From Vicia villosa (Eukaryota > Streptophyta > Magnoliopsida > Fabales > Fabaceae), in the NCBI RefSeq assembly GCF_029867415.1, contig NC_081183.1, positions 68,398,336 through 68,462,335 on the forward strand: a stretch of DNA of 64,000 nucleotides, read 5' to 3'. The position numbers and the translations under genes were made by a program. The notes under the pieces were generated by a model, which worked only from the letters and a program-made list of their open reading frames with translations, was not told the DNA's origin and searched no databases. Below, piece by piece: positions 25,374-62,468 of this stretch (the stretch's first letter is position 1; each line of letters starts with the position of its first letter).

Positions 25374-25377
25374 ATAG

Positions 25378-25389
25378 TGGTATCAGAGC
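25378..25389 (+). other. Primer binding site (initiator tRNA-Met type)
   Basis: TGGTATCAGAGC lies 4 bases after the 5' LTR end (spacer ATAG), identical in sequence and spacing to the minus-strand copy at 481-492. Confidence 0.95.
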
Positions 25390-25508
25390 ATAGTCGGTCG
25401 TTGAGTCAGAGTCTTAGTGTCGGTTGATCCTTCGTATACGATTAGTGTAAAGTTGACACTGTCGATACTTCTTGTTCTAATGAATATTGTCTGATATTTA
25501 GCAGAACA

Positions 25509-28500
25509 ATGGCCGGAAGGGGAGGAAGAAATGACGACGCGATTGCTGAGGCTCTGGGTATGATTGCTGGTGTATTAGGAGGGAATGCCAATGGAGCTGG
25601 TATTGGTGCTGACAAGCAGCTGCATAGTTTTCAGAGGAACAATCCTCCGTTGTTCAAAGGCACGCACGATCCCGAAGGCGCTCAGAGGTGGATGAAGGAA
25701 ATTGAAAGGATCTTCAGAGTGATCGATTGTGCCGAAAATCTGAAGGTGAGGTATGGGACTCACATGCTGTCTGAAGAAGCTGATGATTGGTGGATGGCTA
25801 GTAGAGATGAACTTGAATCTGCAGGTGTAGCGATCACTTGGGCTGTATTCAGGCGAGAATTCCTGAGGAGGTACTTTCCTGAGGATGTTCGGGGCAGGAA
25901 AGAAGTTGAGTTTTTGGTGCTGACACAAGGTAACATAACGGTGCCGGAGTATGCTTCAAAGTTTGTTGAGCTGGCCAAGTACTATGTCCACTATAACAAT
26001 GATGAAGCGAGCGAATTTTCGAAATGTGTTAAGTTCGAGAATGGTCTCCGCGATGAAATTAAGCAGGGAATCAGGTACCAAAGGATTCGTCGGTTTACAG
26101 ATTTGGTGGATTGTAGTAGGATCTATGAAGAGGATAACCTCAAGCTGAAGTCATCTCACTCTCGCGAGTTAGTTGACAAGAAAGTGAAGAAGCCTATGGA
26201 CCGTGGTAAACCATATGGTAGAGGTAATTATAAAGCTGGGAGTTGGAAGAAGCCTAGTGGGGGAGACTCTAGTGCCCCTGTTAAGTGCTTTAAGTGTGGG
26301 GAACCTGGACATCGTGTTCACGAGTGCAAGAGCGAAGAGAAGAAGTGCTACAGGTGTGGTAGAGCAGGCCACATTGCTGTTGACTGCAAGGGAAGGACTG
26401 TGACTTATTATAACTGTGGTGAAGAAGGTCACATTAGTCCACAGTGTCCTAAGCCAAAGAAGAATCAAGCTAGGGGTAAAGTTTTCGCTTTATCAGGTTC
26501 AGAGACTACTCCAGAGGATCGATTGATTAAGGGTACGTGTTTTATCCATGGCACTCCTTTAATTGCAATAATAGATACTGGAGCAACTCACTCGTTTATT
26601 TCGTTGGATTGTGCTAAACGTCTGAACTTGGAAATATCTGACATTAATGGAAGTATGATCATTGACACTCCTGCGTCGGGTTCAGTGACTACTTCGTTTG
26701 CCTGCTTGAACTGTCCAATTGATATTTTTGGTAGAGAGTTCGGAATGGACTTAGTGTGCCTTCCGTTGGAACAAATTGATGTCATCCTGGGTATGAATTG
26801 GTTGCAATTTAATCGGATTCATATCAACTGTTTCACGAAGACGGTTATTTTTCCGGAAGATGTCGGTGTTGAGAGTGTAGCAGTGACTGCTAGACAAGTG
26901 GATGAAGCAATGAAGGACGGGGCTGCCGTGTTTATGTTGATTGCATCCATGGAAGTGAAGAAAAAAGTGGTGAGTAGTGACTTACCGGTAGTATGTGAAT
27001 TTCCAGAAGTCTTTCCAGAAGATGTAAGAGAGTTACCGCCAGAGAGGCAGGTAGAATTTGCTATTGAGTTAGTTCCTGGAACTAGTCCGGTGTCGATGGC
27101 GCCGTATCGTATGTCGGCATCTGAACTAGCAGAGTTGAAGAGTCAGCTAGAAGAGTTACTGGAAAAAGAATTCATTCGTCCTAGTGTGTCGCCGTGGGGT
27201 GGGCCGGTGTTGTTGGTAAAGAAGAAAGAAGGTTCTATGAGATTGTGTGTGGATTATAGACAGCTGAATAAAGTTACTATCAAGAATCGGTATCCATTAT
27301 CGAGGATTGATGATTTAATGGATCAATTGGTTGGTGCGAGTGTGTTCAGCAAGATTGACTTGAGGTCGGGATATCATCAGATTCGGGTGAAGACGGACGA
27401 TATTCAGAAAACAGCATTTAGAACCAGGTATGGCCATTACGAGTATACAATGATGCCATTTGGAGTAACTAATGCACCGGGAGTTTTCATGGAGTATATG
27501 AATAGGATCTTCCATCCTTACCTGGATCAGTTTGTGGTGGTATTTATCGATGATATTCTAATATATTCTAAGAGTGAAGAAGAACATGCAGAGCATCTAA
27601 GAGTGGTATTAGAACTACTGAAGGAAAAGAAACTTTATGCGAAACTGTCAAAGTGTGAGTTCTGGCTAAGTGAAGTAAGCTTTCTTGGGCATGTAATTTC
27701 TAAAGATGGTATTGCCGTTGACCCAACGAAAGTAGAAGCAGTGTCTCAATGGGAAGCTCCGAAGTCAGTTTCCGAAATCCGTAGTTTCCTTGGTCTTGCG
27801 GGTTACTATAGAAAGTTCATTGAAGGTTTTTCAAAGTTAGCGTTGCCATTAACTAAGTTGACTAGGAAGGGTCAAGCATTCATCTGGGATTCGAAATGTG
27901 AAGAAGGATTCCAAGAGTTGAAGAAGAGGTTGACTAGTGCGCCGATCTTGATTTTGCCGAATCCGGCGGAATCTTTTGTTGTATATTGTGATGCTTCGTT
28001 GTTGGGATTAGGAGGTGTACTAATGCAGAATCAACAGGTAGTCGCTTATGCGTCGAGACAACTCAAAGTGCATGAGAGAAACTATCCGACTCATGACTTA
28101 GAATTGGCAGCAGTGGTATTTGTGTTGAAGTTGTGGAGACATTATCTGTATGGTTCGAGGTTTGAAGTGTTTAGTGATCACAAGAGTCTGAAGTATCTCT
28201 TTGATCAAAAAGAGCTGAATATGAGGCAAAGAAGATGGTTAGAGTTCCTTAAGGATTATGATTTTGGGCTGAATTACCATCCGGGTAAAGCAAACATGGT
28301 TGCCGATGCTTTGAGTAGGAAGTCCTTGCATATGTCTATGCTGATGGTAAGAGAATTGGATTTGATTGAACAATTTAGAGATTTGAGTTTAGTATGCGAA
28401 GACACTCCTGTCAGTGTTAAGTTGGGGATGCTGAAGCTGACTAGTTGTATTTTGGAAGAGATTCGAGAGGGTCAGAAAGCTGATGTAGAATTGGTGGATA

Positions 28501-28601
28501 AGTTGACTCTGATTAACCAAGGAAAGGGAGGTGAATTCAGAATCGACGAAAATGGTATTATAAGGTTTGGTAGTCGTGTTTGTGTTCCTGATGTTTCCTA
28601 A
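25509..28601 (+). pseudogene. Tekay gag-pro-RT-RNase H, ended by a nonsense codon
   Basis: The ATG at 25509 opens a 1030-codon frame. Gag occupies residues 1-310 with three zinc knuckles ([14 protein letters not shown] about 259, [14 protein letters not shown] about 279, and a third reading [14 protein letters not shown]). In the third knuckle the first Cys has become Tyr. Protease follows with [10 protein letters not shown] (about 355). RT spans roughly 525-730 with the active-site FIDDILIYS (about 677), and RNase H has [14 protein letters not shown] (about 828). The frame stops at TAA 28599-28601 within VPDVS*LRKS. The integrase half continues in the same frame immediately after. A one-base GAA-to-TAA change would explain the stop, so this is one polyprotein gene with a single visible lesion. 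It supplies particle protein, protease and reverse transcription functions to the element. Confidence 0.92.
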
Positions 28602-29876
28602 TTGAGGAAGAGTATTCTCGAAGAAGGACATCGTAGTGGATTGAGTATTCATCCTGGTGCTACCAAGATGTATCATGATTTAAAGAAGCTGTTTTGGTGG
28701 CCTGGAATGAAAAAGGAAATAGCTAAATTTGTCTATGCCTGTTTGACTTGTCAAAAGTCGAAGATTGAGCATCAGAAACCATATGGAGCTATGCAACCGT
28801 TATTTATTCCAGAATGGAAGTGGGATAGTATATCTATGGATTTTGTTTCTGGTTTGCTGAAGACGGTGAAGAACTATGAAGCCATTTGGGTTATTGTGGA
28901 TAGGTTGACAAAGTCTGCTCATTTTATACCAATGAGGATGGATTACCCGATGGAGAAGCTTGCTCAATCGTACATTGAGAAGATAGTGAGTTTACATGGT
29001 ATTCCTTCGAGTATCATGTCAGATAGAGATCCAAGGTTCACATCCAAATTTTGGGAAGGTTTGCAGAAGGCTCTGGGTACTAAGCTGAGATTGAGTTCTG
29101 CTTATCATCCGCAGACGGATGGACAGACAGAAAGAACTATTCAATTGCTAGAAGATTTGTTGCGTGCTTGTGTGTTAGAAAAAGGTGGTACTTGGGATAG
29201 TTATCTACCCTTGATCGAATTTACCTACAATAATAGTTTTCACTCGAGTATTAGTATGGCTCCGTTTGAAGCTTTGTATGGTCGGAGGTGTAGGACGCCT
29301 TTATGTTGGTACGAATCAGGCGAAAGTGCGGTGATTGGACCAGAGATTGTTCAAGAAACGACGGAAAAGATTAAGATGATTCAGGAAAAGATGAAGGCCT
29401 CTCAAAGTCGTCAGAAGAGTTATCATGACAAGAGACGGAGAACACTTGAGTTTCAAGAAGGGGATCACGTGTTTATGAGAGTTACTCCTATGACTGGTAT
29501 CGGACGAGCCCTAAAGTCAAGAAAGTTGACCCCGCGTTTTATTGGTCCATTTCAGATTTCAGAAAGAGTAGGAGATGTGGCGTATCGCATTGCGTTGCCA
29601 CCGACGCTTGCAAATCTGCATGATGTATTCCATGTGTCGCAGTTGAGGAAATACATTGCTGATCCGTCGCATGTGATCCAAGTGGATGATGTACAGGTAA
29701 AGGATAATCTGACAGTTGAAGTTTTGCCTATGAGGATTGAAGATCGGAAGGTGAAACAATTGCGTGGCAAGGAGATAGCATTGGTCAGAGTAGCTTGGGG
29801 AGGACCAGCCAGTGGAAATGTTACATGGGAATTGGAGAGCCAGATGAAGGACTCCTACCCGGAACTCTTTGCCTAA
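28602..29876 (+). pseudogene. Tekay integrase with C-terminal chromodomain-like end
   Basis: This frame continues from the previous entry, begins right after the stop codon and has no ATG start of its own, so it is the C-terminal half of the polyprotein. The HHCC zinc-binding region is present (HPGATKMYHDL...CLTCQKSK), then the D,D,E catalytic core (Asp in SMDFVSG, Asp in SDRDPRF, Glu in DGQTERT). The GPF-like LTPRFIGPFQI follows. A C-terminal module ends VTWELESQMKDSYPELFA, the type of chromodomain found in Tekay/Del chromoviruses. Length and residues look intact. The protein inserts element DNA, with the C-terminus thought to guide targeting to chromatin. Translation would require readthrough of the TAA or supply in trans. 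Confidence 0.92.
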
Positions 29877-29905
29877 GGTATGTTTTCGAGGACGAAAACT
29901 TTTCT

Positions 29906-29918
29906 AGTGGGGGAGGGT
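29906..29918 (+). other. Polypurine tract
   Basis: AGTGGGGGAGGGT lies immediately before the 3' LTR (TGTAACACC at 29919) and is the expected plus-strand primer. Confidence 0.9.
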
Positions 29919-31754
29919 TGTAACACCCCATAAATTTCTTTATTTAATTTAATTAATTTTTTTATTAGAATAATAGAATTAATTGAATTATTTGAGAAAT
30001 ATGGATTGATGAGGCTAATGGGCCAGTGTCGCAAGTAGCAATTGGGGGGGTGTCAGTTGCAAAGCCTTTTACTAAAACAAGGTTATATTTTTCATAAAAT
30101 AGAAAAGAGGAGGTTTTTGTGAAAAGAGAACCAAAAAGGAGAAGAGAAGATTGAACGTGAAATTGGGAGAAGAGCAAGTGTGAAGAGCAAGGGCATCCGA
30201 GAATTCGACATCGAGGTAAGGGGGGATTCTTCTCATTAACCTCTATTATGGGTTGTATGAATGATTCAATAGAATTTGTATGTTAGGATTCCGAATTGGA
30301 TTGTATGTCGGGTTTGGGGTTTTGGGGTTTATAGAACTTGAATCAATTTAGGTTGTGAATGATGATTGGTGTTGAATAATGATGTTAAACATGATTAGAA
30401 GTATGTGTAAACGTGCAAATTATGTTGTATGTGTGGTTTATTTTTCTGAAATTCGTACTGGTATGATTTGAGAGCATTTGGGAGGTATAGAATGCTGTTT
30501 TCTGCAGGTTGGGGTTTCTGAAATCGCCGGTTTGCGCCGCGTGCACAAGGTTGGCGCCGCGAACAGGTGGGCAGAATGCCAGGATGCTGTGATACGCACA
30601 GGTCGCGCCGCGTACCTGTGTTGGCGCCGCGAAGGCATAATTTTTTTCTCATTTCGCGCCGCGTACAGGTGTTTGCGCCGCGAACAGCTTGACAGAGAGC
30701 CAAGGATTTTTGGAACGCTCAGTTCGCGCCGCGAACCAAGCTTGGCGCCGCGTGCTGTTGCTGTTTGGGATTTTTTTTAAAGTTTAACGATGTATAACTT
30801 TTTAACTGTTAGTCCGTTTGATGTGCCGTTTCGAGCACAGTGAAGCTAATTAAGCGATTTTGCAATAAAATAGTGTTTGAGTTGTGACTCGAATTTAATT
30901 TAAACACTTGATTTAATTGGTTGTGGTGGTTTATATTGTTATTGCATCGGTTGATGATTATGATTGTTCAGTTGTTTGGTGTTGATGATTAGCATGCGGT
31001 ATGTGATGCATGCATTTCATAATCATATTGTGGGCTGTATCCCTTATGGTGGTGGGACAGCGGTAGCTAATTCCCATTGTGTGGAATTGGTGAGAGATGT
31101 AGCCGAATCTTTATGGTGGTGGATCGGTGAGATGGGTTATCCCATGTTTGGTACCACATGCATTTAGTTGCATTGCATTAGGTTGTTGTGTATAATTGTA
31201 ACATGAATGGAAGTTGTCCAATGTTATAATTTGTGTGTATTTTGGTATGAATGACTGTAATTGACGAATGCCGCTACATTATCTGAATATAATTGATTTG
31301 GGTGAATAATGTATGGATGAAGTTGTATTGTTTATATTCCTATAACATTTGTTAATGCGAATGAAACTCACCCTTACTGTTGTTATTTTTCAGATTGAGG
31401 AGTAGCTTGTGTACTTGGTGAGGATTAGCTCGTCAAGTAGTTCGTTAGAGTCAGTTGGGTCTGTGTCATGCTCTGGTCGTGTAACACCGGGAACGTTATT
31501 TTAGAATTGGCTGATAACTTCTGTTTTGTTTATGGTTTATGGTTGAATTATGAGTCTTCGACTCCAGATGTTTGATTATTCAGTTGTTAAGAATATTCCG
31601 CTGTGTTAACATGCTACCTGAATAATTTTTGGTTTATCGTTCCTTTATAGCATGACATGAATATTTGTTTATTTTGTTGGCGTTGTAATACCCTTCTTCA
31701 TGTTTTACTCTGATTTTAATGTTAATTTTCCGCGGGGTTTAGAAGGGTGTTACA
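29919..31754 (+). repeat. 3' LTR of the Tekay-type element
   Basis: Near-identical to 23542-25373. Differences include a 3-base length change near 30935 and several transitions in the GCGCCGCG block. Confidence 0.95.
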
Positions 31755-32029
31755 TTGAGAAGTAGTTGTTGAATGTTGATCGTGTCATCACCGTTCGTGG
31801 TAAATGAGATCTTGGAAGGTCGATCGTGTCAGCACTGTTCAAAGTAACTGAATTAGATCTTGGAAAGATGATCGTGTCTACACCATTCGTGATGATAGAA
31901 TTAAATCCTTGTAGGTTGATCGTGTCAGCACCGTTCGTAGTAACTGAATTAGATCTTGGAAAGATGATCGTGTCTACACCGTTCGTGACGATAGAATTAG
32001 ATCCTTGAAGGATAATCGTGTCAGCACCG
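31755..32029 (-). repeat. Old Ogre-type 3' UTR, part 2: hairpin-forming repeats
   Basis: Diverged repeats of about 50 bp (GATCGTGTC...CACCGTTCGT...) alternate here, each followed by a short dyad: GATCTT/AAGGTC (31808), ATCTT/AAGAT (31857 and 31953), ATCCT/AGGTT (31904) and ATCCTT/AAGGAT (32001). The segment continues 23299-23541 once the Tekay element is removed and ends where the younger Ogre LTR begins. The ORF crossing it is only a repeat translation. Confidence 0.7.
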
Positions 32030-32974
32030 TGTGGTGTCGTTTTCTTTACCTCCCCGTTTCACTTGGGAGGACGGCACGCTAGACCCTTCACGCCAAATTT
32101 GAAAGGAGGAAGCGCCCGTGGCGGGATGAATTTTGTTTCAGTTCTTCCTACGATATCACACGAACTTTTTAATTATCTTACGAGGAGAAAAGGGGAAAAA
32201 GATCTCAAATAAACCCTAGGAGTTTGCTAAGTGTGGGGATTTACCTAGACTAGAAATTCTGGAGTCCGGGGGGTTGGTTATACATAGGGAAGAGTTTAAG
32301 CACCCTACATATCCGTAGTACTCTACGGGAACCTTCTCTGTGTCAATGTGATTGTGTTTGTTGCTTGTTATTGGGAAAGTTTCTCCTTTGTGTTAGGAGA
32401 GAGAATTGAATTGATTTAAAAGAAAGACAGACTGACTGACTATTTTTGGTATTTTATTAGCTCGTTGAGATTCCTTGTGAACCTCATGCCTACATATCCC
32501 TAATGGAAGTCAGAGCTTTTTGTAGTTCGGAGAACTAATTAGGGAAATTAATGATTTTTTTGGTGCCTTGCTTGAAGCTCAAGGTTGAAGCTTGAATTAA
32601 ATCTCTGTTTACAGTAAAGAGACATGAAGTCATCTTTATAGAGAGGTATTTCTACTATTCCATCACAAACATTTAAAAGAGTGACAAAAAAGCTGAATTC
32701 ATTTCATTAAGATAGGGACCTTACTTGTATGTTTGCAAGTATGCCAGTCGCATGTCTCTTGAATGAAAGAAAGATTCTCATCCAAATTAGGGAAAGTGTA
32801 CAAGTCTGGGTTTGTTTGCCTCAGAGCATGCCTTACAAATTCCTAAATGGGAGAATGTTTAAAATTGAAACTGAAATTGAAATGTTTGTTTGTTTGAATG
32901 TAGTGAGATAGGAGAAATATCTTTCTATAGAGATAAGCTATGTCTTCCTACTATTTGAAAGATTTGATTTTTAG

Positions 32975-33760
32975 CTGGCTTGTATGAGGCCCAAGCTTGA
33001 GGCTTTTTGATTGATTTTATTGACTCTGGGTGATAACTCCACTGGGGATGGATTTAAACTAAAGAGTTTTTGTGTTCTGTACAAAGCCCAGAATTGAGGC
33101 TAACTCTAGCTGGAGAGCATTTATTTGATGGATTTTATTTGGTGTTCTGTACAAAGCCCAGAATTGTGGCTGACTCTTCACTGGGGAAGTTATTATTTCA
33201 TGCCTTGTATGAGGCCCAAGGTTGAGGCTGACTCTTTAGGGAGTTTTACTCTGCTGGAGGATTTATCTATTAAAAGACTGATTTTTTGGAGGCTAACCCT
33301 TTCCAGGGATTTTGACTCAGCTGGTAAAATTATCTTTTTAAAGAATGAATTTTTGGAGGCTAACCCTTTCCAGGGATTTACGAATGATAGCAGAAATATT
33401 ATCTAATTGAGACTTATTGTTTTAAAGCCCAAGACGAAGGCTGACACTGACTGAGGATAGATAACTATGAGTCCTAGACTCTGCTAAAGAAATTAATGAA
33501 GATAAGGGTGACAGAGACTGTTCATGTCTCTCATTCCAAAAGGTATACTCAATATGAGATTGAGACAATCTTAGCTTGTTTAAAGTCTGGTTTAAAGAAT
33601 GTAAGAAACTCACCAGGATAGGCTAAAAGGTGACTAAAGACCTGTTCCTATGTTTATAAGAAACCTGATGGGTCCTTGTATACAAGCTCAAGAGGAAGCT
33701 GGAAATGCTTTTAAGAAGCCTGTGGGTCCTTGTACAAAGCCCAAGAGGAGGCTAATCGAG
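32975..33760. repeat. Short covarying hairpin words in the Ogre LTR
   Basis: Words of the form arm - TRTAnnnnGCC - arm recur: GCTTG/CAAGC (about 32978), TTCTG/CAGAA (about 33076 and 33146), CCTTG/CAAGG (about 33208), plus partial CTTG/CAAG copies (33415, 33676, 33731). GGAGGCTAACCCTTTCCAGG occurs twice (about 33290 and 33354). Confidence 0.75.
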
Positions 33761-34867
33761 GGTCATCGAGGGTCCTTGTTATAACACAAGAGAAAGCTAT
33801 GTACTTTTGAACTTATTTTGGCTCTAAGCAAAAGGGTAAGAGGTTTCACCGGGAATAATTCCTCTTGGGTGGATGTATCCTATTTTGGGTTCTAAGGCTT
33901 TTTCAAGATGTTTCACCGGGAATAATTCATATTGAGGGTTTGAACTAAAGATCTCTAATTAGGAAAGAGCCTTCACCGGGAAGACATTCTCAATCCTAGG
34001 CCATATTCCTATAATATATATATAGTTTAACTGTCCTAAGGTTTCACTCACACGTAGTTCTAATATATAAACAGTTCTATATTTGACAGTAATTTAAATA
34101 AAGACTGTAAAATGAAAGCTATAAAGCCTAACCTGGATGGAGTGGAGGCCTTTGAAGATGTATGTACAAATCCTTACCAGCAATTTTATTGATAACAGTT
34201 GAATATTTATAATAAACAGTTAAGGGTTTTTGAAAACAGAAGAAGTGAAGATGGACAAAGGTCACATAGGTATCTAAAGAGTTTCACCGGGAATAATGCC
34301 CTTCAAATACCAGAAGAATGTTTTGAAAACAGAAAGAAGATTTTGTAAATACAATTTTTGAAAACAAATTAATAAAAGAAAAAGGTGCTGGGATTTACAC
34401 TCTATTAGAGGCCTAGTACTTTATAGTACTGGTTAACTGTAATGAAAACAGTTGAAAGATTTGAAATGACACAAGGTTTTGTTGTCTGAAAACCTTAGTC
34501 GTCTGTTTAATTAAGGTTTGAAAACAGTTTTGAAAATTGACAAAAGTTAACTTAATTAGGGTTTAGACAAAGTCTATACCTAATTAAGACCTACATGATT
34601 AAGGTTTTATCACAAAAATATTTACAAGAGATTAGGTTTTGAAAATCAAGAGAAAACTATATTTAAAGTATTTTAAAATACTTAAAAATGTGTTATTTTA
34701 AACCTAACAAATATATATCAAATAAATAATATTTTTGTGATTTTTTGGGTTATTCATAAAATAGATATATTAAATGATAAGTGTGTGAAAAATGAAGTGA
34801 AAATGATTTAATTTGATAGGTGGGTTAATTGGTTGAATTTGTGAAGAAAATTAAAGAAAATAGTGAT

Positions 34868-34946
34868 AAAAAAGATGTTTTGGTCTCACCATTGTTTGAA
34901 CCCACGCCCTTGCAATCAACTACTCAAAACAACAACACTGGGCCAA
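34868..34946 (-). other. tRNA-like module 1 in the Ogre 3' LTR
   Basis: On the minus strand: A box TTGGCCCAGTG (34946-34936), a B-box-like GGGTTCAAAC (34903-34894) with a degraded end, then a T-run TTTTTT (34873-34868). The homologous module in the right-hand LTR (61495-61577) has the better-preserved GGTTCAAACCT. Confidence 0.5.
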
Positions 34947-35027
34947 CGCGCGCTTGGTGTCAAAGGAGTGACTCAATTGCAATACATATGTTATTCAAGT
35001 GTATAGAACAAAAAAATAAATAAAATC

Positions 35028-35118
35028 AAAAGGTCTGGGTCGAGGGGGATTCGAACCCCAGACCTTGGGTACGCACAACACACAAACACTCTTTACCACT
35101 GGGCTATAACGATTTAGT
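35028..35118 (-). other. tRNA-like module 2 in the Ogre 3' LTR
   Basis: On the minus strand: A box TAGCCCAGTGG (35106-35096), B box GGTTCGAATCC (35057-35047) and TTTT (35031-35028). Perfect 8-bp arms GGTCTGGG/CCCAGACC enclose the B box. A complete acceptor and anticodon arm could not be drawn. It may be a tRNA-derived Pol III promoter or relic. Confidence 0.65.
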
Positions 35119-37608
35119 CGTTTATGAAACAACCACCATTCAAAATAAAATAAACTTTAGCCCTGAATTTGAATTTTGCGCGCCACCACCATTGTCATCT
35201 TCAACCTCAAGCTCTCATATTTTTGAAATTCTGAACTCTCTCAATTCTCAACCATTTGCAAAGATGTAAAGACCAAACTTGCTCTAAATTCACTCATGAT
35301 TCCAGATATATATATAACTAACATAAATTTATATTAACTATATCTACTGAATTAAACAAAATACGTGAAGAACCCTAAAATTCAAAAACAAAATTAAATG
35401 ATGATGTTGATGAATAAATGCATGAGAGTAGAAGGCTTTTGATCCTCTAAGGACATTGAATGAACTGGTATCGAGATTTATAAGAAAGAGTACTTGAATA
35501 AGTGAGTTGGGGTTAGAAAAAATACCTCTGAAAATGGAGGTCGTGAGGATGATTGAGAACACCTGGGCTTGTATGAATGATCCTAAAAGCTTCCTTGGAA
35601 CTCAGTGATGCTAACTGAATACTTATTGCTCCTTGAATGCCTCAGGATTGCTCTGCTCGACACCTTCTATTTGAGCTTCAAGTGAACATGGAGGTTGGTG
35701 ATTCTGTGATTACAAATGTGCTGCAGGCATCTGGATAGCTTCACTATCACCTAAGGAACGTGCCTGGATGCTTTGGCTAGCTTGACACCTTCTGATTTGC
35801 TCTATGGACCTTCAACTGCACAGGCTCCAAAATGAAAGCAACAATGGTGTTCTCCCACCTATAGAAGTGATCCAGATGTTTGGATCAACTCCAATGAACC
35901 TCTTTGAGATGTTAGAATGCTTACTTCTCAAAGAAGAGCTCTGGTTTGAAGAAAATGATTCTTCTTGCCAAAGAACTTTGAAAAACCATAAGCATGAGAG
36001 AGAAGGAGAAAGCAAGGAATTGAGTTGCTTTGGTGTGTTTGATACTGAGGTATGCACTTGTATTTATAGGCAAAATGTTCAGATCAAATGGAGATAGTAA
36101 GCTTGCTTAGTGAAGTGAATTTGGTTTCTTGGCCATGAAGGAATTCAAAGAATATTCCAAGTGCAATGATGAGCTCTTTGATACCACTCCCTAGCCATCG
36201 ATTTTTCTTGATCTTAGGGGACAATTCTGATGCAGAAGTGAGCTCCAATTGGTTGGGAAGAGATTCCTTTGGTGATTCATCAATTTGCCATAAATTCCCA
36301 AATGTAATCATTACATAATCACATACCTTTGTTTTTGAGAATATTCTTCAATCCTTATGCAATGATGAAAATGGATGTATGGTATGCTTGCAGATGTATT
36401 ATGGGTCGTGTAACACCATTTAGTGAAGCCATTTGCACAAAATTGCAAAGTTTCAAATTGTTCATGACCTATAATTTTACTCCATGAGGCCAACTTTGAA
36501 CAAGCATAACTTCTAGCTCAAAATGAATTTGGAGGAGGTTGAGCACCATTTGGAAAGACCTAAACATCTACTTCAATTCATTAGTTTGGGGTTTCTTCAG
36601 AATCATTTGGGAAAATTGTGAAAAATGAGCCCAAAGTTGGAAGAAAACTAGGTCAAAAACACAGAAAAATTTCTAAGTTTTTAAGACCTATAACTTCCAA
36701 ATCCTAAATCTCTCAAATGATTGATCTTTTGAAAAAAGTTTCTATGTAAGATGTTGTTTTATTTTGCAAGATCTATAACTTTCATTTTGGAAGTTTTTTG
36801 AGTTGTGTAGGTGAAATTTTGACTTCCCATAATGCTCTCAAAAACCCTAATTCCTGACTTTTTGATCCTTGATGAATTTTCTTGAATTTCTTTGGTCAAA
36901 TGAATTTAATAATGATATATTGATGATATTGATCCTCAAAAGTCATGGTTTGACTAAAAACCCTAAAAGCCAAAGGTGATCCTGTACAGTTGACTTTTTT
37001 CAGATGAATTGAAATTTTGGACTTTTGTGATGAATCAAGTTCTCCTCCTCAAATGAGTGATGTGAATGGATTATATTAAGGTAATAGAAGTTCTTGAACC
37101 ATGTTTTGAGTTTTAGATCCATGTCTTGATTAAAAAGTCAACTATCTTGGTGAATTAGGTCAAAAACCCTAATTGTCGACCAGATGAAATTGATGAGTGT
37201 AGACCTTGAATTGAAGTGTAATGCCTTAGGGATATTGTCATATGAACTAATTGAAGATGATTGAAACCTTTGAGTGATGCCCTGGGGCTTTCTAGGGTTT
37301 CCCAAATGTAATCCCTGATTTTAGTCCTTGTTGGGCTCAAAACCCTAGACTGGTGAACTAAGCAAACCTGAGTCCAGGTGATGGGTGTCTAATCAATCAT
37401 AGGTGAATAGAATGAAGCTTTTTGAGTCCTATGGTTGTATTAGAGACTAATCCTTTTATTGATTGATCCTTTGCCTGAGCTCTTTTGTTTCTGAACATCC
37501 TTGATTAAGCACCAGATGAACAAGTGACTGTTCTGAGTATCTGTTTTGATTCTGATGAAAAGCCTGAAAGTATGACATCTCAGGGAGGGTCAAAATTAGG
37601 GTATGACA

Positions 37609-37622
37609 GATGCCCCTATTTA
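37609..37622 (-). other. Polypurine tract of the younger Ogre
   Basis: The minus strand reads TAAATAGGGGCATC directly before the LTR start TGTCATACCC. The old Ogre-type LTR has the similar AACAGGGGCAGC at the same place. Confidence 0.8.
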
Positions 37623-40600
37623 AGTTTCTTTCAACTGGAGGGAGAGGGATTGATATCTCGATTTCTCCTGAGTGAAAGAGACTTAAATACCAAAGAATGC
37701 CCGAATTTTGGGCGTCCTTAGGATGTTGCATTGATAATGAAATCCTCGTGCATGACTTGGTCCCGTTGTCGCATTCTGCAGGGAATAGGGAGACAAAATC
37801 CTGTAAAAATGTGCTTATGCAAATTCTGGTGAATGGATGGCAATGTAGAGTGCACAATCCATCTTCTTTGACTAAGTGTTGATACTTAGAAAAAGGTAAA
37901 AAAACTCCCCTTTGTTTTGGATGTCCGATCGCGAAACTGGTCTTAGTTGTGCTTTTGGACGATATCTCCGATAAAGAGAAAAATCTCCAAGCGTTTGTTT
38001 CCTCATCAAACTTCTCACTAGCGTCCGTTGGAGAGATGCCATTTGATGGATGACAAGAAACTTTATCATACTTTTCTTCAATGTGACGTCTTCAAAGGGA
38101 TGCCATATGATCGTGCGTCCTTTTGAGGAGCTAATGACTTTGCTTGAAAGTGGACGAACTGTTTTCGGAACAAAAACTACCATTCATCGACTTATGCTAG
38201 GGAATTAACAAACTGCTTTCTAGTAAGAAAAGTGCCATTTGTCAATTCTGCTGAGGAATCTGAACTATCTTTTTGGAGAAGACTGCCATTCATTGACTCC
38301 GCTGGGAAATTAACAAACTGTTTTCCTAGGAGGAAAACTGCCATTTGTCGACCCTAATGGGGATAAAACATCTCGGAAGCAGACAAACTGTTTCTTGCAA
38401 AGAAACTGTCATTTGTCGATTCCTTGGGTATTAAACAGACAAACTGTCTTTCCTCGGGAAAGACTGCCATTTGTCAATTTCTAGGGGAACAAACTGTCTT
38501 CTGCTGAAAGAGACTGCCATTTGTTGACCCTGCTGTGGAATCCTTAAGCGAAACGAACTGTCTTCATAGAGAAGCCTGCCATTCGTTATCTCTAGGGGAA
38601 CAAACTGTCTTCTGTTGAAAGAGACTGCCATTCGTTGACTCGACTTAGGAAAAAAAGTGAGCAAATTGTCTTCTGATGAAAGAGAATGCCATTTGCTTGA
38701 CTTTGTTGAGGAATCTTTAAGCGAAACGAACTGTCTTCGTAGAGAAGGCTGCCATTCGTTACCTCTTCAAAAAAAAGTGAGTGAACTGTCTTCTGCTGAA
38801 AGAGACTGCCATTCGCTCAACTTTAATAAAGACTCCTGAAACGAACTGTCTTCGTGAAGAAGACTGCCATTCGTTAACTCCGCTTGGGAGAAAGTGAGCA
38901 AACTGTCTTCTTGTTGAAAGAGACTTCCATTTGCTGACTTTACATAAAGAATCCTAAACGAACTGTCTTCATGAAGAAGACTGCCATCCGTTATCTCTAG
39001 GGAAACAAACTGTCTTCTGATGAAAGAGACTGCCATTTGCCAACCCTGTTGAGAGATCCTTAAGCGGAACGAACTGTCTTCTGCGAAAGAGACTTCCATT
39101 CGTTGATCCGGCTTAGGAAAAAGTAAGCAAACTGTCTTCTGCTGAAAGAGACTGCCATTTGCTGACTTGAAATAAGGAATCCTTAAACGAACTGTCTTCA
39201 TGAAGAAGACTGTCATCCACATTATCTCTAGGGGAACAAACTGTCTTCTGCTGAAAGAGACTGCCATTTGCCAACCCTGTTGAGAGGTCCTTAAGCGGAA
39301 CGAACTGTCTTCTGCGAAAGAGACTGCCATTCGTTGATCCGGCTTAGGAAAAAGTAAGCAAACTGTCTTCTGCTGAAAGAGACTTCCATTTGCTGACTTT
39401 AAATAAGGAATCCTTAAACGAACTGTCTTCATGAAGAAGACTGCCATTCGTTATCTCTAGTGGGGAGATTCGAAAGTGGACAAACTATCTTCCGGAGAAG
39501 ATTGCCAACTATCGAGCTGTTGGAGAATCCTAGTTGGGGAATCCCAAAAGTGGACAAACTATCTTCATGAGGAAGACTACCATTTGTCGACCTTGCTTGG
39601 GGATAACAACAGTAGTAAACAAATTATCTCTTTGAGGGAGATTACCGCTTGCTGACTTGCTGGTGAATCCTTGTGTATGAACCGTCATCACGAAAAGGAA
39701 GGTTCTTTCACAACTCGTAGGGGAAACTTGAGCAGATGTCCAAGTGATTCGAGAAATAACAGGATGAAAGCCTAACTGGACCATGCTACTTATGCATTCA
39801 TGATGTGTGCAGTATGCATGAATATTATGATGATTATAAAATGTAAAGTGAATGTGAAATAGAATTATCGCGGATGTGAAATCCTGTGATACGAATGGAA
39901 TTTTTTATTGATCAGATGATGTCTTCTTCTTGGAATTTTTACTTTGCACTCTGTTGGGGATACCGGGTTACCAGTTGTCCGCTGTTAGAAGTGAGTGAAA
40001 TGACTTGAAGTTGAAGATCCGTCATCAGGAGATGTTCATAAAGCGATCTCATGGGGAAATTTTGGTTCCCGGAGTCTCAACCGTTTTCGAAGCAACTGTT
40101 TGCATTCTTCCTATTGTTTGTAAACCTTAGAAAGAAATTTCACCTTTAATTTTGCAAGTAAATCCATTTTATTTTATGAAAACATTTGTTTCAAGAAACA
40201 TGACTGTTAGATTTAAAAAAATGTAATTTTAAGAAACTGAATAAGACTCGATTGCAAAGAAAAGGCACAAAGCTCAAATTATTATTTATGGAACGGTGAC
40301 CAGCCAAAGGCTTGATCCCATAGAGTATTTACAAAAGTTGGAAATTGGTAATTTTCGGGAAAAAGGACTACGATGAAACGTGACGACCGTTATCTTTCCC
40401 TTCCACTCTGAATTGCGCTGTATTCGTGCTTCGTAGAAGATGACCTACTGATGGTGAATACTCCGCTATGGATTTTGAATGATCAAGTTTGTCCTGAACA
40501 CAGTTACTTATATCCCTAACTTTTGCGTAAACTACCCCTTTCGGTTAAGTCTACCGGGATTGATTATATATTTTTTATGTCTCTAACTTTTGCCTGAATC

Positions 40601-40692: not shown

Positions 40693-43600
40693 TTAGGCGA
40701 AGTATTTTTTGACTGCGTCGACGTTCACAAGACAGGTGAATTCTTCTCCATCCATAGTCGTGAGTATTAAGGCTCCTCCCGAGAAAGCTCTCTTGACCAC
40801 GTATGGGCCGTCATAATTGGGAGTCCACTTCCTCTCGAATCTGTGAGAAAAGATTGAATCTTTTTTAGTACAAGGTCGCCTTCTTTGATTGTGTGAGGTC
40901 GAACCTTTTTGTTGAAAGCTTTCTTCATTCTTTGTTGATATAGCTGTCCGTGGCATAAAGCTGTCATGCGCTTTTCTTCGATTAAGTTCAATTCATCGAA
41001 TCTGCTTTGACACCACTCGGCTTCTGTTAATTTTGCCTCCATCAAAAATCTCATTGATGGGATCTCAACCTCTCTGGGTAGGACTTCCTCCATGCCATAT
41101 ACAAGGGAGAAAGGAGTTGCTCCAGTCGAAGTACGTACAGACGTATGGTAACAATGAAGAGCAAATGGGAGCATTTCATGCCAATCTTTGTAAGTGATGA
41201 CCATTTTCTGAATGATTTTCTTGATATTTTTGTTAGCTACTTCTACAGCTCCATTCATCTTTGGCCTGTAAGGAGATGAATTATGATGTTCAATCTTGAA
41301 TTCTTCACAAAGTTCCTTCATCATTTTGTTGTTCAAATTTGACCCATTGTCAGTGATTATCTTGCTAGGAATGCCGTAGTGACAGATGATGTGATTCTTG
41401 ATAAACCTGACGATAACTTGTCTTGTGACGTTTGCGTACGAAGCTGCTTCGACCCATTTGGTGAAATAGTCTATGGCTACCAAGATGAAGAAATGTCGGT
41501 TGGACGCTTTTGGCTCGATCATTCCAATCATGTCGATTCCCCACATGGAGAAAGGCCAAGGGGAAGAGAGTATGTTGAGAAGAGATGGTGGCACATGAAT
41601 TCTATCGGCGTAGATCTGGCACTTGTGACACCTCTTTGCATACTGGTAGCAATCTGACTCCATCGTCAGCCAATAATATCCTGCTCTCAGTATTTTCCTT
41701 GTCATGGTGTGTCCATTGGTGTGAGTACCAAAGGAACCTTCATGTATTTCTCTCATGAGTGTTTCTGCTTCTTTTCTATCAACGCATCTGAGCAGAACCA
41801 TGTCGAAATTTCTCTTGTACAAAACATCTTCATTCAGGAAGAATCTGCCAGCTAACTTTCTCAAAGTTTTTCTATCTTTCTTTGACGCCCCAAAAGGGTA
41901 CTCTTGCCTTTGAAGAAAGTTTTGATGTCGTGATACCACGGTTTGTCGTCGATGATTGCTTCTACTGTGAAGACGTGAGCGGGCCTATCCAGGCGCATAA
42001 CATCGATCTGAGGAATGTCATTCCAATGATTTATCCTAATCATGGAAGAGAGTGTGGCTAATGCATCAGCCAAGTTATTTTCTTTACGAGGAATGTGATG
42101 AAAATCTACTCTATCGAAGAATGGTAACAATCTTCTCGCGTAGTCTTTGTAAGGGATTAGCCCTGGTTGGCGTGTTTCCCATTCTCCTTTGATTTGATTG
42201 ATGACCAAAGCAGAATCTCCGTATACATCTAAGTGTTTGATTCTTAGATCCACGGCTTCTTCGAGACCCATGATGCAAGCTTCATATTCGGCCTCATTGT
42301 TTGTACATTTGAAAGTTAATCTGGCGGTAAACGGAATATGGGTACCTCGAGGGGTGACAATGATTGCCCCAATTCCTCGTCCATAATCATTGACAGCTCC
42401 GTCAAAGATCAAGCCCCACTGGGATCCTATCCCAGGTCCTTCATCTGGTAGTGGCTCATCGTAATCTTTCATATCGAGGTACATGACGTCTTCGTCCGGA
42501 AAGTCAAAACTGGTTGATTCATGACCATTGAGTGGATGGTGAGCCAGGTGCTCAACTAGGATGCTTCCTTTCACGGCTTTCTGTGCGTGATACTCAATGT
42601 CATATTCTGATAACAACATCTGCCAACGGGCAATTCTCCCAGTTAAGGCAGGCTTCTCAAAGATGTACTTGATTGGATCCATATGGGAGATCAACCAAGT
42701 AGTATGTCGAATCATGTACTGGCGGAGACGCTTGGCAGCCCAGGCCAAAGCACAACGGGTTTTCTCGAGCATGGAGTAGCGGGATTCACAGTCAGTGAAT
42801 TTATTGCTCAGGTAGTAGATGGCATGCTCTTTTCTTCTCGTCTCGTCTTGCTGTCAAAGGACACAACCCATGGAATCTTCTAAGACGGTTAAGTACATTA
42901 TCAAAGGTCTTCCTTCCACTGGAGGAGACAGGATGGGTGGTTCGAGCAGATATTCCTTAGTGCTGTCGAACGCTTTTTGACAATCGTCTGTCCAGACGCA
43001 ACTTTGATTTTTCCGTAGATGTTTGAAAATTGGAGCACAAGTTGCTGTCATGAGATATATGAATCTCGAGATGTAATTTAGACGTCCAAGAAATCGTCTA
43101 ACTTGTTTCTCGGTTCTGGGCGAAGGCATTTCTTGAATTGCCTTGACTTTGTCTGGATCTACTTCAATTCCTCGTTTGCTGACGATGAAACCAAGGAGTT
43201 TTCCTGAGTAGACACCAAAGGTACACTTGTTGGGGTTCAGGCGAAGCTGAAACTTCTGTAAGCGTTGAAATAACTTTGTCAGATTCTGTATGTGATCTTC
43301 CTCATTTTCTGATTTGGCAATCATGTCATCCACATAAACTTCCACTTCCTTATGCATCATGTCGTGGAAAAGTGTAGTCATGGCTCTTTGATAAGTTGCC
43401 CCTGCGTTCTTTATGCATCTTGATTTGGTTGTATCCCGAAAATCCGTCCATGAATGAGAAAACTTTGGATTTTGCTGTACTGTCAACCAACATGTCAATA
43501 TGTGTTAAAGGAAAATCATCCTTAGGGCTAGCTTTGTTCAAATCTCTGTAGTCGATGCACATGCGGACTTTTCCGTCTTTCTTAGGAACGGGAACAATAT

Positions 43601-48973: not shown

Positions 48974-50311
48974 CTAAGCGTTCTCTGACGTGAGCTGATC
49001 GATGATCCAGGAAGCAGGAGGGATATGATGAGAAAGTGACGATTGTGTCACTTGTCGATCGAGTACTTCAAGTAACTCATCCTTCCTTTTTAGGATGTTT
49101 TGAATCTCAACATTTTCCATGTTGACGACTCGATACTTGTTCCTCCAAGCATTCCTTTCTTGGCATACCTTGTTTAATGCCGCTTGTAGTTTTTCAACAT
49201 TGGTGGAGAAAAGGTATATTGGTTCCCTTAGGGGAATTGGTTCTTGATGCTGATATGGCATCCTGAGCTTGAATGCTCTGATGCGTACCCATTGAAGGTA
49301 AGGATCCAGGGAGATGCAAAGATATTTCCCTAACAATCTTCTCCCTTTGCTGTGAACAAGACGCCAGGCTTGGACAATTTCCTTCTTCAACATGTTACCA
49401 TGATCGTCGATGTTCTTGAAGAACAGACCCTCCAATTGAATACTACTTGGTATATTTTTCATGGGATCACCGTATTGACGACGGGCTAAAGCTGGATTAT
49501 AGCTGATTCCTCCCTTAGTTCCAATAAGGGGTACGTTGGGATAACTTCCGCAACTGAAGATGATCTTGGTTTCGTCGTTGTCAGGACTACACCACTCAAT
49601 GTCCGTATGAGTGAGGGACATGATTTTCTGTGACCAGTAAAGGCCATCCCTCATATTCCAGAAAGTGCTAGACTTTGGCAGGTGCGAGACAAACCATTCG
49701 TATAACAACGGTACGCAGCATGTGATTAATCCTCCTCGCTGCAGGTTTCTTGAATGCACAGAGTTATAAGCATCCGCAAGCAAGGTTGGAACTGGATAAG
49801 CAATGTTAGGGAACAAAAACAATCCGTAGATAAGCAAAGCCAAGATTTCCTCAAAAGCGCTCATATCTTGGATGCTGACGAAGTACCGAGCTTGATCAAA
49901 CAGGAACTTGGAGGGTAATCCTTGAATTCCTCCTTTACTCACCATAGGAGTTCTGATTTCGACTACGTTTAAGGGAGTAGTTGCTGCAATGATAATATCG
50001 TCAAGATTCTTTTCCAAAACGGAGTACGGATCTTGCGCGTACACGGGTATTCCAACCAGACGAGAGTACTCCTCTAACGTAGGCATGAGTTGATAATCTG
50101 GAAAGGTGAAGCAGTGATACGCTGGATCATAAAACTGTACCAATGTGGGAAGGATCCCATCCACAATGTTGGTATTGAGAAGAGGCAGAAGTTTTCCATA
50201 CTTCTCCTTGAAAGCCTGGGGGTTGACCACCAGTTTTCTGAGCTTTTCCAATTCCTCGACCTTAGGAATCTTGAAGGTGTATTTCCTAGCTCTCTTTCTT
50301 CCATAATCCAT
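48974..50311 (-). CDS. Ogre ORF1 protein, plant-mobile-domain-like
   Basis: An intact 445-codon frame runs from ATG (MDYGRKRARKYTF) to a stop at 48974. This extra ORF upstream of gag is diagnostic of Ogre elements. The central part (about residues 60-330: FPDYQLMPTLEEYSRLVGIP, ALLIYGLFLFPN, SVHSRNLQRGG, CCVPLLYEWFVSHLP) resembles plant mobile-domain/aminotransferase-like proteins. The C-terminal 80 residues look coiled-coil (NKVCQERNAWRNKYRVV). Its biochemical role is unknown. Unlike ORF2 and ORF3 of the same copy it has no stop or frameshift. Confidence 0.88.
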   Translation of the reverse strand: MDYGRKRARKYTFKIPKVEELEKLRKLVVNPQAFKEKYGKLLPLLNTNIVDGILPTLVQFYDPAYHCFTFPDYQLMPTLEEYSRLVGIPVYAQDPYSVLEKNLDDIIIAATTPLNVVEIRTPMVSKGGIQGLPSKFLFDQARYFVSIQDMSAFEEILALLIYGLFLFPNIAYPVPTLLADAYNSVHSRNLQRGGLITCCVPLLYEWFVSHLPKSSTFWNMRDGLYWSQKIMSLTHTDIEWCSPDNDETKIIFSCGSYPNVPLIGTKGGISYNPALARRQYGDPMKNIPSSIQLEGLFFKNIDDHGNMLKKEIVQAWRLVHSKGRRLLGKYLCISLDPYLQWVRIRAFKLRMPYQHQEPIPLREPIYLFSTNVEKLQAALNKVCQERNAWRNKYRVVNMENVEIQNILKRKDELLEVLDRQVTQSSLSHHIPPASWIIDQLTSENA

Positions 50312-51103: not shown

Positions 51104-53387
51104 TGTGGTGTCGTTTTCTTTACCTCCCCGTTTCACTTGGGAGGACGGCACGCAAGACCCTTCACGCGAAATTTGGAAGGAGGAAGCGCCCGTGGCGGGA
51201 TGAATTTTGTTTCAGTTCTTCCTACGATATCACACGAACTTTTTAATTATCCTACGAGTAGGAAAGGGGAAAAAGATCTCAAATAAACCCTAGGAGTTTG
51301 CTAAGTGTGGGGATTCACCTAGACTAGAAATTCTGGAGTCCGGGGGTCGGTTATACATAAGGAAGAGTTTAAGCACCCTACATATCTATAGTACTCTACG
51401 GGAACCTTCTCTGTGTCAATGTGATTGTGTTTGTTGCTTGTTATTGGGAAAGTTTCTCCTTTATGTTAGGAGAGAGAATTGAATTGATTTAAAAGAAAGA
51501 CAGACAGACTGACTATTTTTGGTATTTTATTAGCTCGCTGAGATTCCTTGTGAACCTCATGCCTACATATCCCTAATGGAAGTCAGAGCTTTTTGTAGTT
51601 CGGAGAACTAATTAGGGAAATTAATGATTTTTTTGGTGCCTTGCTTGAAGCTCAAGGTTGAAGCTTGAATTAAATCTCTGTTTACAGTAAAGAGACATGA
51701 AGTCATCTTTATAGAGAGGTATTTCTACTATTCCGCCACAAACATTTAAAAGAGTGACAGAAAAGCTGAATTCATTTCATTAAGATAGGGACCTTACTTG
51801 TATGTTTGCAAGTATGCCAGTCGCGTGTCTCTTGAATGAAAGAAAGGTTCTCATCCAAATTAGGGAAAATGTACAAGTCTGGGTTTGTTTGCCTCAGAGC
51901 ATGCCTTTCAAAGTCCTAAATGGGAGAATGTTTAAAATTGAAATTGAAATTGAAATGTTTGTTTGTTTGAATGTAGTGAGATAGGAGAAATATCTTTCTA
52001 TAGAGATAAGCTATGTCTTCCTACTGCTTGAAAGATTTGATTTTTAGATGGCTTGTATGAGGCCCAAGCTTGAGGCTTTTTGATTGATTTTATTGACTCT
52101 GGGAGATAACTCCACTGGGGATGGATTTAAACTAATGAGTTTTTATGTTATGTACAAAGCCCAGAATTGAGGCTAACTCTAGCTGGAGAGCATTTATTTG
52201 ATGGATTTTATTTGGTGTTCTGTACAAAGCCCAGAATTGTGGCTGACTCTTCACTGGGGAAGTTATTATTTCATGCCTTGTATGAGGCCCAGGGTTGAGG
52301 CTGACTCTTTAGGGAGTTTTACTCCGCTGGAGGATTTATATATTAAAAGACTGATTTTTTGGAGGCTAACCCTTTCAAGGGATTTTGACTCAGCTGGTGA
52401 AATTATCTTTTTAAATAATGAATTTTTGGAGGCTAACCCTTTCCAGGGATTTATGAATGATAGCAGAAATATTATCTAATTGAGACTTCTTGTTTTAAAG
52501 CCCAAGACGAAGGCTGACACTGACTGAGGATAGATAACTATGAGTCCTAGACTCTGCTAAAGAAATTAATGAAGACAAGGGTGACAGAGACTGTCCATGT
52601 CTCTCATTCCAAAAGGTATACTCAATGTGAGATTGAGACAATCTTAGCTTGTTTAAAGTCTGGTTTAAAGAATGTAAGAAACTCACCAGGATAGGCTAAA
52701 AGGTGACTAAAGACCTGTTCCTATGTTTATAAGAAACCTAATGGGTCCTTGTATACAAGCTCAAGAGGAAGCTGGAAATGCTTTTAAGAAGCCTGTGGGT
52801 CCTTGTACAAAGCCCAAGAGGAGGATAATCGAGGGTCATCGAGGGTCCTTGTTATAGCACAAGAGAAAGCTATGTACTTTTGAACTTATTTTGGCTCTAA
52901 GCAACAGGGTAAGAGGTTTCACCGGGAATAATTCATCTTTAGGGTTTGAACTAAAGATCTCTAATTAGGAAAGAGCCTTCACCGGGAAGACATTCTCAAT
53001 CCTAGGCCATATTCCTATAATATATATATATAGTTTAACTGTCCTAAGGTTTCACTCACACGTAGTTCTAATATATAAACAGTTCTATATTTGACTGTAA
53101 TTTAAATAAAGACTGTAAAATGAAAGCTATAAAGCCTAACCTGGATGGAGTGGAGGCCTTTGAAGATGTATGTACAAATCCTTACCAGCAATTTTATTGA
53201 TAACAGTTGAATATTTATAATAAACAGTTAAGGGTTTTTGAAAACAGAAGAAGTGAAGATGGACAAAGGTCACATAGGTATCTAAAGAGTTTCACCGGGA
53301 ATAATGCCCTACAAATACCAGAAGAATGTTTTGAAAACAGAAAGAAGATTTTGTAAATACAATTTTTGAAAACAAACTAATAAAAGA
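51104..53387 (-). repeat. 5' LTR of the younger Ogre, truncated
   Basis: It matches 32030-34380 of the 3' LTR from the terminus inward (about 2% substitutions by eye). A block of about 63 bp between two CACCGGGAATAATTC boxes (33860-33925) is missing here. Similarity stops abruptly at about 53387, so the remaining 3.2 kb of the LTR is gone. Confidence 0.88.
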
Positions 53388-61329: not shown

Positions 61330-61417
61330 CATCGTTTGCCCTAGTGGCCTCACATACGCCCTTAGTCCCCTCATGCCTCAAGTCTGGGGTTCGAATCCCC
61401 CTCGCCCCAGACTTTTT
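61330..61417 (+). other. tRNA-like module A in the right Ogre LTR
   Basis: A box TGCCCTAGTGG (61337-61347), B box GGTTCGAATCC (61388-61398) and TTTTT (61413-61417). Perfect 8-bp arms GTCTGGGG/CCCCAGAC enclose the B box. It is homologous to 35028-35118. Confidence 0.65.
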
Positions 61418-61494
61418 GATTCTTTTATTTTTCAAAGATTTACCACTTGTTTTGAAACACAACCAAATGGGTGTGTGTCATTGTCACTAAGCGC

Positions 61495-62431: not shown

Positions 62432-62432
<1 letters not shown>

Positions 62433-62462
<30 letters not shown>
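62433..62462. repeat. (TA)n run in the right Ogre LTR
   Basis: About 15 TA units; the corresponding sites at about 34012 and 53022 have only 5-6 units. Confidence 0.9.

Positions 62463-62468
<6 letters not shown>

Follow-up and report, generated by a model that had tools for sequence, protein, structure and literature searches.

Hairpins with covarying arms recur in the 3' untranslated region of Vicia villosa Ogre elements and probably form a cis-acting RNA array

Introduction

What keeps the arms of a tandem hairpin array complementary while their letters change? The question is raised by a 64-kb stretch of Vicia villosa DNA (64,000 nucleotides; contig NC_081183.1, positions 68,398,336 to 68,462,335; here the window), in which such an array lies between the integrase and the 3' long terminal repeat (LTR) of a minus-strand Ogre retrotransposon. 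Tandem repeats in the 3' untranslated region (UTR) are frequent in the Tat lineage, though not exclusive to it. Those of Ogre/Tat elements were reportedly described by Macas in 2009 as hypervariable and as seeding satellites, and Ogre 3' UTR repeats are regarded as hypervariable raw material for satellites. Passages of one published account describe how they vary in sequence and length and can grow into satellites, and put Ogre at 45% of the Lathyrus sativus genome (PMC7004042). An earlier note, made from the letters of the window, had proposed that the folded shape rather than the sequence is kept, either by selection on an RNA or by a process that copies one arm from the other. We conclude that the array is probably a cis-acting element of the Ogre RNA that is held by selection, and that it would serve as a docking platform for protein.

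Results

The array is real and longer than the approximately 26 hairpins at 38152..39660 of the earlier note. We count 28 units between 38005 and 39653, two of which lie outside that range (Table 1). Read on the plus strand, the units follow the plan given before: outer arm, CT, inner arm, loop, inner arm, TGCCA, outer arm. They are closely related, lie 47 to 88 bases apart and are organised in 231-bp higher-order repeats. The first two, U01 and U02, were found by a scan whose only requirements were six outer base pairs and a right flank resembling CCA; their arm letters differ, but TGCCA is unchanged and the outer arms pair perfectly over 6 bp.

As had been claimed, the outer arms vary between units and yet stay complementary. 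On the plus strand, 148 of 168 outer cells are paired, compared to 130.1 +/- 2.4 (maximum, 140) in 20,000 partner swaps; complete outer arms number 17 of 28, compared to a mean of 5.1 and a maximum of 12. The covariation claimed for the inner arms held for cells (149 of 168 paired, compared to 136.5 +/- 2.3 and a maximum of 147 after partner swaps in a fixed register), and was weak for complete arms in that register (11, compared to 7.7 and a maximum of 13). There, GTCTTC faces AGAGAC or AGAGAA in 11 of the 28 units; by our own reading of the folds, most of these 11 pair better with one bulged base. In a MAFFT alignment on the sense strand, 92.6% of cells are paired compared to 83.3% after shuffling, and 10 of 12 pairs show two-sided change compared to 5.3, values reached by 0 of 500 shuffles in each case; the covariation score was likewise matched by 0 of 500. 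Unconstrained RNAalifold returned the described fold unaided from the sense strand, with two-sided changes in 9 of 11 pairs.

Covariation also exceeds what kinship among the units predicts, as judged by a home-made R-scape-like script rather than R-scape itself. Fitch substitutions were redistributed on the same branches of two trees, with 400 nulls per setting. Compensatory events in the outer arms number 6.0 on either tree, where the nulls average 0.8 to 1.3; in the inner arms they number 8.0 and 6.5, where the nulls average 0.9 to 2.3. Whatever the setting, 0 or 1 of the 400 nulls is as high as the observed number. Taken singly, two of the six outer pairs are significant (p <= 0.012 in all tree settings).

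The setting in an Ogre 3' UTR, also proposed before, was borne out. Minus-strand domains follow in the order DUF7745 open reading frame (ORF), protease (a weak match under the Pfam cut-off), reverse transcriptase (RT), RNase H, second RNase H and integrase, with RT_RNaseH then RVT_3 at 41861-42772 and the integrase at 40767-41939. The DUF7745 ORF, which we take to be Ogre ORF1, supplies the additional ORF upstream of gag, and the array supplies the 3' UTR tandem repeats expected of Ogre/Tat elements. A primer-binding site (PBS)-like sequence, TGGCGACTC, adjoins the LTR; TGGCGACTCTATCGGGGA stands directly after the LTR end, where a PBS would lie, and the PBS begins with TGGC. Beyond the array lies the LTR start, TGTCATACCC, with AGGGGCATC just before it. 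The second RNase H between RNase H and integrase is an Ogre trait found also in Retand (PMC6317226). In the ORF list (ORFs only), a gap between 45103 and 43498 falls where a protease-RT intron would lie; the Ogre intron is described in the same source as removed from only a subset of transcripts (PMC6317226). Because the array has the integrase on one side and the 3' LTR on the other, its transcript (sense) strand is the minus strand. The plus strand, which the earlier note had taken as the working strand, is thus antisense.

This change of strand alters how the imperfect pairs are read. The 21 imperfect outer cells on the plus strand comprise 16 A-C, 1 G-T and 4 others, and A-C there is G-U on the transcript, so that 163 of 168 outer cells are paired and 24 of 28 arms are complete in the sense RNA. 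The units previously listed as breaking one pair (38599, 38955, 39184 and 39477) are indeed imperfect on the plus strand, but mostly by A-C, which is G-U in the sense RNA. The reverse applies to GAGTGAA/TTCGCTC at 38778, a wobble on the plus strand as described and a mismatch on the sense strand (U14).

We then turned to other copies of the array. Thirty-nine fetched loci and the window gave 40 arrays, drawn from the 40 scored of 1867 candidates in the 2.03-Gb assembly. Units were recognised by a scorer blind to the outer arms, which made 8 false matches in 153,739 shuffled bases. The 40 arrays hold 1217 units, whose outer cells are paired at 95.0% on the sense strand and 86.9% on the opposite strand. 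We also fetched 20 stretches downstream of Ogre integrases (106 matches scored of 59,372 first-look candidates). Units of the main type occur in 19 of the 20, with 4 to 17 in each and none on the opposite strand, so that the same shape stands in other Ogre 3' UTRs, as had been supposed. Pairing in these copies is kept rather than lost as often as kept: in the 191 units of the 19 copies, 905 of 1146 outer cells are Watson-Crick (WC) pairs, compared to 729 +/- 11 after swapping. Fully paired arms that are absent from the window recur among the copies, with AGTGAA/TTCACT in 7 of the 19 copies with units and GACGAA/TTCGTC in nine loci. Different copies amplify different hairpins, as 76-bp arrays of the U01 type or as 50-, 54-, 60-, 110- or 117-bp arrays of the main type, and some instead amplify another stretch in 52- to 62-bp arrays. 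Outside plants, a pattern search of viral contigs gave 9 single matches, none array-like by BLAST, and integrase searches of viral and bacterial/archaeal contigs gave no relatives.

The one stretch without units, L068, was considered as an Ogre with unrelated hairpins. We rejected this, as its 3' UTR is apparently interrupted by another element (approximately 767-1967), which is copia-like by our own reading of a PBS-like sequence, TGGCATCAGAGC. The interrupting element carries 66-bp tandem hairpins of its own (CTAGAGT..ACTCTAG) about 200 bases before its PBS, with 4617 first-look candidates in the genome. At another locus, L056 (C338:520600-529000), the array has expanded to 102 recognisable units in an 8.4-kb, satellite-like stretch, which would be useful for asking if pairing decays outside the element.

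U01 belongs to a second unit type with clean compensatory sets. Of 216 loop matches, 135 lacked the TGG anchor and a further 2 the TCT inner arm; with these removed, 79 units (29 distinct) at 16 loci were left. Of the 79, 74 have TCTCATC/GATGAGA, TCTTACC/GGTAAGA or TCTTATC/GATAAGA as their inner arms. Among distinct units, WC cells number 198 of 203 in the inner arms (173.9 +/- 4.3 swapped) and 162 of 174 in the outer arms (153.8 +/- 2.5 swapped). Inner pair 4 is T-A in 45 units, C-G in 32, C-A in 1 and T-G in 1, and inner pair 6 is T-A in 40, C-G in 37 and T-G in 2. Outer pair 1 is A-T in 37, G-T in 26, G-C in 15 and A-G in 1, with no A-C: the G-T intermediate, G-U on the sense strand, is common and the A-C intermediate is missing.

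A diverged Ogre family shares the array architecture. A search with protein P0080, whose ORF1 is 43% identical to that of the window, listed 105 matches, and we fetched six stretches and one continuation. Three of the six were useful: L077, L079 and L080, the last continued by L083. The others (L078, L081 and L082) had been chosen by ORF1 distance and were left out, having no integrase match and no alignment of more than 300 bases to other copies; L077 and L079 are also without an integrase match, and the integrase of L080 is 75% identical. In the 3' UTRs of L077, L079 and L083 we found a hairpin TATGAA UGGUUA GUCUC..GAGAC AG UUCAUG, repeated in tandem at 47 to 50 bp in L077 and L079. Inner arms vary to GUCC/GGAC in L077 and to GUCCC/GGGAC in L079, the latter in a unit with a degenerate outer arm. 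A strict search for the shape in L077, L079 and L083 gave 1, 3 and 2 sense hairpins and 0 antisense, compared to 0.00 to 0.03 in shuffles (maximum, 1).

Other repeats were seen in these stretches. A different hairpin series, about 30 bp apart, lies on the sense strand of L083 (2114-2364) and L077 (836-927); its loop, [AT]G[AT]GAA[TC]C, is nearly constant, and its stems read GTTATG/CATAAC, ATTACG/CGTAAT and GTTCTG/CAGAAC. L082 holds a 41-bp tandem repeat (2678-3076) with palindromic-looking unit ends (ATCAGA..TCTGAT).

Both unit types and both families share one internal loop, UGG..A (UGGNA) opposite AG on the sense strand. The earlier note had called the corresponding plus-strand loop, CT opposite TGCCA, largely constant, and 1083 distinct units of the main type agree: T 97%, G 98%, G 92%, C 88% and A 96%. 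The U01-type loop is UGG[C/U][A/G] in 79 of 81 matches, and that of the second family is UGGUUA or UGGUGA, opposite AG or sometimes AA.

Composition alone predicts about two A-C cells for each G-T (0.172 to 0.088 in swapped pairs), and further loci were therefore examined for a strand bias. On branches common to at least three loci, changes of outer-arm WC pairs to sense G-U outnumbered those to sense A-C by 26:4 (tree without outer columns) and 27:9 (all columns). On private branches, the same ratios were 98:91 and 58:63 (Fisher p of shared versus private, 0.0003 and 0.004). Flank columns showed no bias (55.3:46.0 on branches with at least six loci and 105.2:105.2 on private ones). A first run with 20 loci had given a weaker contrast, 11.7:6.0 on deep and 33.7:34.3 on shallow branches. 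An old bias with private symmetry is what selection before insertion and neutral decay after it would give.

Discussion

The position, orientation, fold and covariation of the array, and its recurrence in other copies and in a second family, are supported by these results. From them we infer selection rather than copying, action of the sense RNA, recognition of the internal loop, protein binding and a part in export. That shape is kept over sequence, the central proposal of the earlier note, holds in the window, in other copies, in the second unit type and in the diverged family. Of the two causes offered for it, selection on an RNA fits better than copying between arms, because most of the imperfect outer pairs to have persisted are G-U when read on the transcript.

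Copying would mean that, as the element is reverse-transcribed or replicated, template switching or palindrome correction rewrites one arm from the other and so keeps the arms complementary without any selection on RNA. We consider it unlikely as the main cause, even if outer changes in the window are near-purely WC on the plus strand (1 one-sided kept change against null means of 7 to 11) and hairpin units are often duplicated in tandem. Under copying, no strand bias would be expected, whereas imperfect cells are mostly sense G-U and old outer changes are biased where private ones are not; nor does copying predict an outer pair in U01-type units with A-T, G-T and G-C but zero A-C. The internal loop, moreover, survives between two changing helices, where long copying tracts should erase it.

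Ancestry alone, in which a few founder hairpins were duplicated and their covariation inherited, is slightly less credible again. It accords with the close relatedness of the units, their 231-bp higher-order repeats and the small tree-aware event numbers (6 in the outer arms). It would not be expected to leave tree nulls that so rarely match the compensatory count, multiple fully paired arm versions in many copies, two inner compensations in U01-type units or the same pattern in a diverged family.

A role of the DNA itself seems improbable to us. Cruciforms or complementary DNA hairpins would drive recombination, array expansion and the birth of satellites, and palindromes would persist by multiplying. 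The amplification of different units in different copies, the 102 units of L056 and the satellites derived from Ogre 3' UTR repeats that passages of PMC7004042 report are all in keeping with this; point-by-point compensation and the transcript-strand wobble bias are left unexplained by it.

A further reading, to which we give little credence, concerns the primer. Each RNA would carry up to about 50 fold-conserved, sequence-free hairpins whose UGGN loops catch the NCCA end of transfer RNA (tRNA), so that primer tRNA would gather in the particle; module copies would be replaced as any hairpin that works is duplicated in tandem, and derived satellites would inherit the fold. In T-box riboswitches, a UGGN stretch in the antiterminator bulge is complementary to the tRNA NCCA end. 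The Ogre units likewise hold UGGN in an internal bulge and the Ogre PBS also starts with TGGC; pairing with tRNA is putative here. Unlike the T-box, the array belongs to a eukaryotic retroelement, has neither specifier nor terminator, and varies in the fourth base.

A protein-coding repeat on the minus strand, suggested by a 226-amino-acid ORF at 38767-39447 (-) and by 38 predicted proteins resembling it (E up to 10), was rejected as the least probable account, since that single sense ORF reads the unit in three frames, unit spacing is variable and the sole Pfam match is under the cut-off. The similar proteins come from other samples and are known as proteins alone; 35 of the 38 match at E 0.0014 or lower, with best identities of 37 to 91% to the fetched loci. 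The ORF and these database proteins are probably spurious translations of hairpin repeats.

Several observations weigh against selection on the sense RNA. In the window, the remaining four of the six outer pairs are not individually outstanding, and inner arms in the fixed register have no strand bias (15 A-C to 16 G-T). Across loci, the inner arms again lack a sense bias (8:5 and 11:4 on deep branches compared to 41:22 and 41:23 on private ones), as do pairs outside the outer arm (20:10 and 12:8 compared to 25:8 and 22:10). The strand counts are not independent, one arm polymorphism recurring 7 and 5 times on the tree, and a cruder cluster-majority count is unbiased in the outer arms (10:14 for shared and 18:15 for private). 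Arm variants of single loci are also richer in A-C than in G-T cells (88:30), as are those of at least six loci (20:5), so that the variant table cannot separate old from new. G-U on the transcript strand as a tolerated imperfect pair is seen in the outer arms and is absent from the inner and outermost arms and from the cluster count. One tree shows a deficit of transversion breaks on deep branches (p = 0.012) and the other does not (p = 1). Loop conservation is partly selected, as the unit finder keys on inner arms and internal loop. Folding energies of units are alike on both strands (means, -11.05 sense and -10.69 antisense; p = 0.53), and the array, taken in 200-nucleotide windows, has no unusual stability (sense z, -2.5 to +1.3). 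Finally, Rfam gave no match at the gathering score in the whole window, and a further search gave one match below gathering (E 0.41).

On the sense strand, each unit is predicted to fold into an outer helix (6 to 7 bp), an asymmetric internal loop (UGG..A opposite AG), an inner helix of about 5 to 7 bp and a short terminal loop. In the reading that we favour, units multiply and turn over as tandem repeats, with consequent drift in sequence, while in transposing lineages selection on RNA pairing would hold the fold, with G-U as a tolerated intermediate. Element copies would amplify different members of the hairpin series, so that the set persists and no single sequence does. The repeated internal loop may be a protein docking site, which would make the array a multivalent platform. 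The 3' UTR is present in both spliced and unspliced Ogre RNA, and the array alone could therefore not tell these RNAs apart for packaging, whereas an aid to export would work for the intron-retaining RNA. For this reason, our first guess, by analogy, is nuclear export of full-length, intron-retaining Ogre RNA, and our second is binding of Gag/nucleocapsid in packaging.

The nearest functional precedents, again by analogy, may be the transport elements of the animal LTR retroelements IAP (RTE) and musD (MTE), which like the candidate described here are cis-acting folded RNAs serving full-length retroelement RNA (PMC12786077). Passages of that source report tests of their export role, whereas the Ogre structure is a tandem array with a role proposed by analogy and no Rfam match. 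The repeats previously described in Ogre/Tat elements are likewise tandem, variable and expandable, and lie downstream of gag-pol in the 3' UTR; they are explained there by illegitimate recombination or strand transfer, whereas the units here share a covarying RNA fold (PMC7004042). The words "hairpin," "secondary structure," "inverted repeat," "dyad" and "palindrom" have 0 occurrences in the main text of that article. Our literature search, which covered titles and abstract openings and left subscription literature mostly outside, found the 3' UTR repeats and their growth into satellites as known and no publication on a conserved hairpin fold in Ogre 3' UTRs. If the fold is held through turnover, the region would be functional RNA and not filler. 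It would provide a concrete cis-element for a little-known step in the life cycle of plant LTR retrotransposons, and satellites born from the array would start as RNA hairpin arrays.

Other features of the window

Table 1. Positions of the Ogre features and hairpin units in the window
Feature	Position	Strand	Remarks
3' LTR of Ogre	~37609 down to ~32026 (32026..37609)	-	Bounds by eye, approximate
Whole array, 28 units, Ogre 3' UTR	38005..39653	- (sense)	
U01	38005..38047	-	ATCAAA/TTTGAT on plus strand; type of 76-bp arrays in other copies (own reading)
U02	38065..38111	-	ATCATA/TATGAT on plus strand
U03	38153..38188	-	GACGAA/TTCATC on plus strand; sense G-U
U04	38207..38243	-	
U05	38259..38294	-	4/6 outer pairs
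U06	38312..38349	-	
U07	38382..38417	-	
U08	38438..38475	-	
U09	38488..38525	-	
U10	38552..38587	-	
U11	38599..38636	-	"Broken" on plus strand, G-U on sense
U12	38660..38697	-	
U13	38725..38760	-	
U14	38780..38817	-	AGTGAA/TTCGCT: wobble on plus strand, mismatch on sense
U15	38840..38875	-	
U16	38897..38935	-	
U17	38957..38992	-	"Broken" on plus strand, G-U on sense
U18	39004..39041	-	
U19	39068..39104	-	
U20	39126..39163	-	
U21	39186..39221	-	Sense: three G-U and one true mismatch
U22	39235..39272	-	
U23	39299..39335	-	
U24	39357..39394	-	
U25	39417..39452	-	
U26	39479..39513	-	Inner ATCTTC/GAAGAT compensatory; outer two G-U and one mismatch on sense
U27	39553..39588	-	
U28	39618..39653	-	
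RT, RNase H, second RNase H (RVT_3), integrase; three ORF pieces	40767..43498	-	Domain matches
ORF1 (DUF7745)	48974..50311	-	E 4.6e-113
5' LTR, part	51104..53387	-	Identity to 3' LTR: 97.4% over 1837 and 98.3% over 477 aligned positions

The two LTRs of the Ogre cease to match at 53387, and some 3.2 kb of the 5' LTR is either absent or replaced. A related Ogre LTR in the opposite orientation (58836 to 63125/64000) is 83% identical to the 3' LTR. It has no 3' UTR, and no array was found at 58836-64000, where likeness to the array-bearing element ends at the LTR start. Elsewhere in the window, array-type hairpins gave only 8 scattered matches (scores, 12.0 to 16.1). A separate gypsy-type element lies at 23542-31754 (+); its LTRs share 98.4% identity, and two long ORFs (25509-29876) hold its gag-pol. 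Palindromic-looking short tandem repeats occur at 9207-9331 (GTGTTTTCGGA..TCCGAAAACAC) and 9754-9919 (AGCGCTTTT..AAAAGCGCT).

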